Assembly: GCF_003073135.1 (NCBI RefSeq)
Contig: NZ_PGDQ01000001.1
Span: forward strand, 124,001 to 188,000
Length of the DNA: 64,000 nt
Source: Euzebya rosea
Lineage (GTDB): Bacteria; Actinomycetota; Nitriliruptoria; Euzebyales; Euzebyaceae
Reading direction: 5' to 3'
The position numbers and the translations under genes are program-made. Under the pieces are notes generated by a model. It saw only the letters and a program-made list of their open reading frames with translations. It did not search any database and was not told the origin of the DNA. The stretch's first letter is position 1, and each line of letters starts with the position of its first letter. Below, piece by piece: positions 46,402 through 48,195 of the stretch.

Positions 46402-46887
46402 TCAGGACGACGCGCCGTCGACGCACCGGTCGAGGGCGTCGGCGAGTCGGGGGAGCGCCGCGTCGAGCGTGTCGGCGACCGAGCAGCGGATCAGCAGCAG
46501 CTGCATGTCGGTGAGGGCATGCACGGTCCGCAGCTGGATCCGCCGCTGCCGCATGCAGCGCAGGCCGATGGTTGTGCCGCGCGAGATGACGAGGTCACGG
46601 TGGCCGGGACGGCTGGCGACTGCCCTGCCGCTGACGATCACGAAGGCACGCGGCGAGGGCGGGCCGGGCACGGCAAGGCGGTCGCCGTCGGTCACCGACA
46701 CGATGGTGAACATGCGCCTGGCCACCTCGACCTCGGCCGGGTCGAGCGGAACGGGCAGGACGGGTGGGGCCAGCGCCTCCTCCAGCGTCAGCCCGATCCG
46801 CAGGCAGGTGGACGGACGCAGGTCATCGGGTGCGGTCGTGGTGTCGCGCATGGCGCGGACCTCCGGGAGCGTGGGTGCGATGGTCAT
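46402..46887 (-). CDS. Small cNMP-binding-fold protein
   Basis: A 161-residue protein. The central 100 residues look like a cyclic-nucleotide-binding beta-roll: DGDRLAVPGPPSPRAFVIVS, SGRAVASRPGHRDLVISRG and TVHALTDMQLLLI follow the order of Crp-type domains. The phosphate-binding cassette (GExxxL...RxA) is not recognisable, and there is no helix-turn-helix, so it may sense something else or act through protein contacts. ATG 46887 follows GAGGGC. It is convergent with the osmolyte trio, 6 bp away. Confidence 0.6.
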   Translation of the reverse strand: MTIAPTLPEVRAMRDTTTAPDDLRPSTCLRIGLTLEEALAPPVLPVPLDPAEVEVARRMFTIVSVTDGDRLAVPGPPSPRAFVIVSGRAVASRPGHRDLVISRGTTIGLRCMRQRRIQLRTVHALTDMQLLLIRCSVADTLDAALPRLADALDRCVDGASS

Positions 46888-47060
46888 GCCCTCAAGGAGC
46901 GCCGACCGGCCTCGCTGATACACGCCCCCGGATTCCGTGTGCCGGTCGCCCGGCCCACCCCGACGCGTGTCGCCCGGGTCGGCGGCGGGTGCCGGTGAGA
47001 CGACAGGCCTGTGGTGTGTGTCGCCTGGTCGGCGGGCCACAACGGTGAGTCGACGCGCTT

Positions 47061-47188
47061 GAGGGACTCGGCCCTCGGGGGTTCGAAAGGGGGCGGAGCC
47101 CCCTTGGGGAGGACAGCGCCGTAGGCGCTTGGGACCTCGAGCGCCCTTTCGGGCGCGAGACAGCAACGCTATGCGTTGCTGTCCCAAG
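47061..47188 (-). ncRNA. Candidate structured RNA or hairpin array behind tRNA-Arg
   Basis: Non-coding stretch directly 3' of tRNA-Arg on the same strand. Perfect helices: H1 47124-47135 with 47181-47192 (12 bp, closing a branched fold and reaching into the tRNA 3' end); H2 47159-47169 with 47173-47183 (11 bp); H3 47141-47146 with 47151-47156 (loop GAAA on the minus strand, a GNRA tetraloop); H4 47115-47120 with 47124-47129; H5 47087-47094 with 47098-47105; H6 47061-47065 with 47072-47076. H1 and H4 exclude each other; H1 and H2 share 3 bp. H5 is terminator-like. It could be a tRNA trailer with terminators, or a stable RNA of its own. Confidence 0.4.
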
Positions 47189-47261
47189 CGCCCCCGGAGC
47201 GATTCGAACGCCCGACACCTGGTTCCGGAAACCAGTGCTCTATCCCCTGAGCTACGGGGGC
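47189..47261 (-). tRNA. tRNA-Arg (anticodon CCG)
   Basis: A 73-nt cloverleaf: 7-bp acceptor GCCCCCG/CGGGGGC, D-arm with AGCTCAGGGGATAGAGC, anticodon stem CTGGT/ACCAG with loop TTCCGGA (anticodon CCG, reads CGG) and T-loop TTCGAATC. The 3' CCA is not encoded. An 11-bp hairpin lies a few bases downstream. Confidence 0.97.
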
Positions 47262-47328
47262 AAGGGAGGGGATGGTAGCCGGTCGGGGCGGCTCGGGCCA
47301 CATGGCGCCGCGGCGTCCGATCGCCCGG

Positions 47329-48195
47329 CTACAGCGCCGCCAGTCCCTGCGCGAAGGGGTTGGGGTCGGGGGTGACGGGGTGCGGGGTCTCGGTCGGCCC
47401 GGCGGTCGCGGCAGCGGCCTCGCGCTGGTCGGCGTACCAGTCCAGCGAGGGTCCGAGCAGGGCCTCGTAGGCCCGGCGGAACGCCTCGGCGGCCGGCTGG
47501 CCGAGCCAGTCGTCGGGCAGGACCGCTGCCGGCAGGCCCGGGTCGGCGAAGAGGAACGACCGCCACCGATGCACCAGCCGCAGCCGGGCGGCGAACGCGG
47601 CCTCGCCGTCTTCGGGGACCTGCACGTCGGTCCACTCCTCGAGGAACGCCCGGTGGTCCGCCCGCAGCCGCTCCAGGTCCCAGGCCAGGTGGGCCAGGGT
47701 GTCGTCGGGGCCCTCGACCCGAGCGGTCATCCGCATCACGTCAACGCGGGCCGCCTCGGGCATGCGGTCGAGCACCGCCTCGACGGCGCGGCCGTGGTCG
47801 TGGGGGCTGACCCAGACGGTCGGCTCGAGGCGTCCGTAGCCGATCCACCCGAGCTCCGCGGCCAGCTCGCCGTCGGCGTCGAACTCGTCCAGCCCGGGGG
47901 TGACCAACATGCGCCACGACCCGTCCCACGGCCGCGTTCGCAGCCGGTAGATCCGCTCGGCCGCCTCGTCCAGGCGCGTCACGCCCTTGTCGGTCAGCCG
48001 GTAGGCGGCGTACCGCCCGGCCCGTCGGGGTTCGACCCAGCCCTCACCCGTCATGCGGTGCAGCGCCGTGCGGACGGCTTGCGGGTTGAACCCGAGGGTG
48101 CCCATCGCGGCGGTGATCGTCGAGAGCCACGCCTCCCCGCCCGTCGGCCGGACGACGTCCCCGAAGAGGGTGAACAGCGCGGATCGTGCGCGCAC
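47329..48195 (-). CDS. PaaX-family transcriptional regulator
   Basis: A 288-residue repressor of the PaaX family, whose founding member controls phenylacetate degradation in response to phenylacetyl-CoA. An N-terminal winged helix (about 1-75) has FGDVVRPTGGEAWLSTI and NPQAVRTALHRMTGEGWV. The central domain (WDGSWRMLVTPGLDEF) and C-terminal helical PaaX_C domain follow. GTG 48195 is supported by GGGAGG. No paa genes lie nearby, so the regulon must be elsewhere; many PaaX-like proteins respond to other acyl-CoAs. Confidence 0.9.
   Translation of the reverse strand: MRARSALFTLFGDVVRPTGGEAWLSTITAAMGTLGFNPQAVRTALHRMTGEGWVEPRRAGRYAAYRLTDKGVTRLDEAAERIYRLRTRPWDGSWRMLVTPGLDEFDADGELAAELGWIGYGRLEPTVWVSPHDHGRAVEAVLDRMPEAARVDVMRMTARVEGPDDTLAHLAWDLERLRADHRAFLEEWTDVQVPEDGEAAFAARLRLVHRWRSFLFADPGLPAAVLPDDWLGQPAAEAFRRAYEALLGPSLDWYADQREAAAATAGPTETPHPVTPDPNPFAQGLAAL

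Follow-up and report, generated by a model that had tools for sequence, protein, structure and literature searches.

The stretch of DNA directly 3' of the tRNA-Arg(CCG) gene of Euzebya rosea is crowded with perfect helices, one of which reaches back into the tRNA, which raises the question of whether it specifies a functional RNA or owes its shape to another cause. The original prediction, made on the 64,000-nucleotide stretch of contig NZ_PGDQ01000001.1 analysed here (the window), took it for a switchable or processed RNA, either a tRNA trailer or a separate stable RNA. As the tRNA gene is located on the minus strand, the folded stretch is its 3' trailer, and this part of the prediction holds. 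ARAGORN ends the tRNA at 47188 (47188-47261), and Rfam family RF00005 matches 47189-47261 with 60.4 bits. The acceptor 3' strand occupies 47190-47196 (CGGGGGC) and the discriminator G is at 47189; the sequence continues with CTTGGGAC, and CCA is not encoded. The present genome (G000) was compared with its closest relative (G003), two other relatives in the genus (G001 and G002), a sister genus (G004) and an outgroup in the class (G032), the genome-level statistics being drawn from selected genome stretches.

All six of the helices described earlier were found in the sequence. The outermost, P1, is a perfect 12-bp closing helix on the tRNA strand in which 47181-47192 (X, the 5' arm, spanning the tRNA 3' end and beginning with 47190-47192 and the discriminator) pairs with 47124-47135 (X', the 3' arm, repeating the tRNA 3' end and its flank in inverted form). 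Given the positions of the acceptor strand and the discriminator, P1 covers three acceptor bases as well as the discriminator, so that it does reach the acceptor end as proposed. Between the two arms lie hairpin 1 (47159-47183, minus strand), with 11 bp, the loop TAT and three bases shared with P1, and hairpin 2 (47141-47156, minus strand), with 6 bp and a loop reading GAAA on the tRNA strand. On the far side of X' a second, local pairing is available: X'' (47115-47120; minus strand GGCGCT) repeats the tRNA end in direct orientation and forms with X' a 6-bp hairpin with a loop of three (47115-47129, minus strand), which is the competing hairpin of the original prediction. Repeat searches identified the next segment, 47076-47114 on the plus strand and thus antisense to the tRNA, as a copy of a dispersed repeat, element E_I (CGGGGGTTCGAAAGGGGGCGGAGCCCCCTTGGGGAGGAC). 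Its core is the hairpin at 47087-47105 (8 bp, loop GGA) that had been called terminator-like. A weak 5-bp hairpin (47061-47076, minus strand; 47061-47065 with 47072-47076) follows past E_I, and the sequence match between G000 and G003 stops at 47076.

The minus strand of 47061-47193 has a minimum free energy of -78.9 kcal/mol, compared with -55.2 +/- 4.0 for shuffled sequences (z -6.0), and none of 200 shuffles was as stable; the fold therefore exceeds chance, and z is -4.9 when tRNA-Arg(CCG) is included in the folded sequence. When the tRNA was held as a cloverleaf by constrained folding, the optimal fold of the 110-nt trailer contained no P1 and consisted of hairpin 1, now lengthened to 13 bp, together with hairpin 2, the 47115-47129 hairpin and the E hairpin. 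The energy of this cloverleaf tRNA plus trailer (-101.3) is equal to that of the unconstrained optimum of the same length, and P1 emerges only in a longer fold of 201 nt, at the cost of a disrupted tRNA. The 12-bp helix enclosing two hairpins thus exists by sequence but is missing from the best fold with an intact tRNA. P1 and the X'-X'' hairpin are mutually exclusive by sequence and, because the tRNA is synthesised first, the branched P1 fold would more aptly be regarded as competing with the resting state.

The same layout was found behind ten tRNA genes in four genomes of the genus, in the order tRNA 3' end X, at least one hairpin, X', a short loop, X'', and then one of two GC-rich repeated elements, E_I or E_II. 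X' is a 9-13 bp inverted copy of X, and X'' is a direct copy of 4-7 nt of the tRNA end. The members are tRNA-Arg(CCG), Ala(CGC), Pro(CGG), Val(TAC) and Met in G000, Arg(CCT) and Ile in G001, Ala and Met in G003, and Tyr in G002, the last of which was read directly and stands as the tenth member outside the class test. That test, which scored a perfect helix of at least 10 bp between a tRNA 3' end and its own trailer, was positive for five of 32 trailers in G000 (all with 12-13 bp), two of 32 in G001 and two of 57 in G003, compared with none of 35 in the sister genus and none of 32 in the outgroup. When the trailers of G000 were exchanged among tRNAs (300 permutations, same threshold), a mean of 0.22 and a maximum of two such helices were obtained. 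The X'-X'' hairpin is present in all ten members; the competition noticed at 47115-47129 is real and is a rule of the trailer family. None of the nine scored members encodes CCA, compared with 43 of 111 other tRNAs (Fisher p 0.026, the rows not being independent). Tandem copies occur behind tRNA-Ala, Pro, Val and Ile. At the tRNA-Ile of G003 (L132, 1350-1650) the unit is doubled and the inverted copy extends 16 nt into the tRNA (GTGGGCCATCGAGGAC), being antisense to the T-arm and acceptor end. Between X and X' the hairpin sequences mostly differ from member to member and thus do not show that the module is of common descent. The palindrome CACGCGGAC..GTCCGCGTG was considered as a freely dispersed element and rejected, as its occurrences in 41 genomes are confined to tRNA-Ala and tRNA-Met loci in G000 and G003. 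The smaller contig of G003 also carries about 24 tRNA genes within 14 kb (G003:C2:345478-358993), probably a plasmid or prophage tRNA array.

X' is matched to its own tRNA in each case, and nine of the 12 P1 pairs are changed on both sides (21 cells). Over nine P1 arms 89.8% of cells are paired, with no one-sided or G-U changes, and the covariation score is 0.62 versus 0.18 after shuffling. The compensatory changes that the original prediction proposed to look for are two-sided among paralogous tRNAs, but three tRNA-Arg orthologues lack the structure and the helices in G003 are unsubstituted. Helices selected as RNA usually include some G-U pairs, and the lack of such intermediates in X' suggests DNA-level copying of the tRNA end. 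On the sequences compared, the covariation of P1 is real, yet it is not proof of RNA function, because a copied inverted repeat gives the same pattern.

At the tRNA-Arg(CCG) locus itself, the folded structure is absent behind the orthologous genes of G001, G002 and G004, and tRNA-Arg(CCT) has the layout in G001 only. In G003 the trailer is about 96% identical but lies about 28 kb from the working tRNA-Arg(CCG), past two integrated elements. These are arranged in tandem at the 3' end of the tRNA (G003:C1:1296513-1324591; L034, L051 and L052) and are absent from the window; fragments of the tRNA are found at 1296513 and 1304187 and the whole tRNA at 1324517, and the shared core stops two bases past the discriminator, adjoining the module. 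G003 also has about 5.9 kb of additional DNA inserted precisely where E_I ends on its outer side (G003:C1:1290663-1296513; L050, 13664-19513), which includes, as judged by eye, an ABC-2-type permease-like gene. In G002 the whole tRNA-Arg(CCG) gene is immediately preceded by a 51-bp partial copy of it, and the flanks are repeated (L033, 720-770). Between G000 and G003 only six of 147 aligned sites of the trailer and tRNA fragment differ, versus 9.7% in the flanks (Fisher p 0.017), and the six differences are clustered just past the X'-X'' hairpin. No substitution falls in the approximately 75 nt that P1 and the X'-X'' hairpin delimit, and a single base is deleted, in the GAAA loop. This would mean either that the trailer fold has been kept or that the detachment in G003 is recent. 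The lack of substitutions is the main objection to the view that the repeat is idle, as such conservation exceeds what an idle repeat would need.

The best-surviving of the rival explanations is an RNA device in which P1 would hide the tRNA 3' end, the X'-X'' hairpin would free it, and an exchange of strands between the two would control or proofread the 3' maturation of tRNAs without encoded CCA. The occurrence of both mutually exclusive pairings in ten trailers, the missing CCA of the nine scored members and the unsubstituted fold of two species all speak for it. Nevertheless, we regard it as unlikely: only five of 32 trailers in G000 have the arrangement and orthologous tRNA-Arg genes manage without it, the detached trailer of G003 is equally conserved, P1 is without G-U or one-sided changes, and the fold with an intact tRNA does not contain it. 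With three orthologues lacking the structure, and a trailer that is detached in G003 yet nearly identical, the special function of a switchable or processed RNA is unsupported. It seems improbable as well that this is an ordinary tRNA trailer plus terminator, with GC-rich palindromes giving rise to the additional helices as by-products. A single simple hairpin does lie downstream of many other tRNAs in G000, and the 8-bp E hairpin has UUU behind it. However, this is all that follows it, no U-tract terminator site being detected in 46850-47400, and neither the folding z-score nor the recurrence of inverted tRNA-end copies far above the permutations would be accounted for. The hairpin regarded as terminator-like is better described as part of the dispersed repeat E_I.

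Copies of E_I with up to three mismatches number 12 in G000 and seven in G003. Outside tRNA loci they are mostly located past stop codons, often about 50 nt from the stop, and at most protein-gene loci the last 13-38 bases of the gene, including the stop codon, are repeated on the far side of the element. At L095, L100 and L146 the automatic test detected no significant gene-end copy, with a short imperfect one visible by eye at L095. Two loci have empty counterparts. Between a pyrC-like and a carA-like gene, E_I lies between two copies of the gene end in G003 (L102, 1401-1640), while G000 has a single copy (L263) and G001 also appears empty. Past a lysS-like gene, a 43-bp E_I is flanked by two perfect 37-bp copies in G000 (L104, 1401-1640), with one copy in G003 (L257); the duplicated stretch is a hairpin overlapping the stop codon. 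The single-copy gene end at both loci is 36-38 bp long. Because of these empty sites, E_I is best read as an insertion accompanied by a long duplication. Unlike at the protein-gene loci, no long duplication was found flanking the E_I of the window at tRNA-Arg, and no empty site for the module was observed at tRNA loci, unlike for E_I at pyrC and lysS; both absences count against a repeat-derived trailer. Past the protein genes at L097, L092 and L105, a unit of gene end, conserved spacer and E_I occurs two or three times in tandem.

E_II, single or in tandem, is located behind tRNAs for Met, Ile, Ala, Pro and Val and was found only in G000, G002 and G003 among the five genomes searched. The exact E_I core had a single match in a set of 84,980 genomes, which may lack near relatives, and none in viral contigs. 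This copy, in Nonomuraea sp. G32 (L282, 5080-5112), is the sole exact core outside the genus in that set and is intergenic, among palindromes. A scan of named genomes by means of the neighbouring gene gave no matches. Under strict settings, a generic scan for combined direct and inverted repeats returned nothing in the window or in 59 kb of G003; with the settings relaxed, 400 kb of G000 gave mostly noise, which suggests that the repeat family is rare.

A DNA-level role, in which the palindromic arms would belong to a site beside the attachment core of elements integrating into tRNA-Arg(CCG), has in its favour the tandem elements of G003 with their 50-bp and 37-bp tRNA fragments, the core ending next to the module, and the 5.9 kb insertion abutting E_I. 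It is nonetheless very unlikely, since the layout also occurs at tRNAs of G000 with no adjoining element seen, X' varies with the tRNA, and the elements of G003, which cross over within the tRNA, have no need of the module. A separate stable small RNA, for which the very stable fold could be cited, is the least credible reading, as no sigma-70-like promoter was found at the locus, the members have no common hairpin sequences, and the only Rfam match at gathering score is the tRNA (no riboswitch, T-box or other family), the permissive matches (E up to 5) being at chance level, far below threshold and without RtT.

The structure is thus, in the reading that we hold to be fairly probable, a palindromic trailer that derives from repeats, is specific to the genus and follows a tRNA gene without encoded CCA, and the trailer is probably transcribed and then discarded; neither a regulated switch nor a separate small RNA is supported. 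In this palindromic trailer the module adjoins the tRNA, with an outer helix made from X and its inverted copy and hairpins inside; X' can pair with either the tRNA end or X'', and E_I lies behind the module at this locus. X' would have originated by DNA-level copying of the tRNA end, through insertion with duplication or template switching, and would not have been shaped base by base by selection on RNA. RNA polymerase would transcribe the tRNA together with the trailer and the tRNA would fold first, after which X' would pair with X'' and leave the acceptor end free. Transcription of the trailer would stop at or before the E hairpin, and the trailer would be removed ahead of CCA addition; it may play a part in tRNA 3' maturation. 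A more speculative and rather doubtful proposal is that tiny mobile hairpin elements settle at gene 3' ends, where they duplicate the end of the gene and, by template copying, also produce it in inverted form. Since such elements would copy whichever gene end they adjoin, an antisense arm fitted to the acceptor end of each tRNA would follow.

Searches of the literature on tRNA trailers, gene-end duplications and the genus returned nothing on point, and several known systems offer partial parallels. In the E. coli tyrT/rtT operon (Rfam RtT) the tRNA gene is followed by repeat units in which 19 bp of the tRNA 3' end recur in direct orientation. The present units likewise hold a direct copy (X'', in all members) and are in tandem at Ala, Pro, Val and Ile; however, the copy is far shorter (4-7 nt), there is in addition an inverted copy that makes a long helix with the tRNA end, the arrangement occurs at several tRNAs and RtT does not match. 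As in REP/REPIN sequences, the palindromes are short, GC-rich, dispersed, extragenic, non-coding and sometimes tandem, but their copies are found at the 3' ends of genes, whose end they carry or duplicate. A RAYT/REP origin was rejected, as neither G000 nor G003 has the Y1 (RAYT-type) transposase PF01797. Intrinsic terminators of tRNA genes share the hairpin-rich trailer directly 3' of the tRNA, whereas here there is no U-tract and the outer helix makes use of the end of the tRNA itself. Group IIC introns are inserted downstream of terminator hairpins, and E_I similarly lies past gene ends, at lysS past a hairpin overlapping the stop codon; unlike these introns, it is about 43 bp long, non-coding and flanked at lysS and pyrC by a 36-38 bp duplication.

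If the copying mechanism exists, as the empty sites suggest, it would represent a kind of insertion that combines a short hairpin, a 36-38 bp duplication and targeting of gene ends, for which no transposase or other enzyme was identified in this analysis. More generally, a striking tRNA-linked RNA fold can arise from repeats that copy the end of the adjoining gene, and automated RNA discovery would be misled by the strong covariation that such paralogues appear to show.
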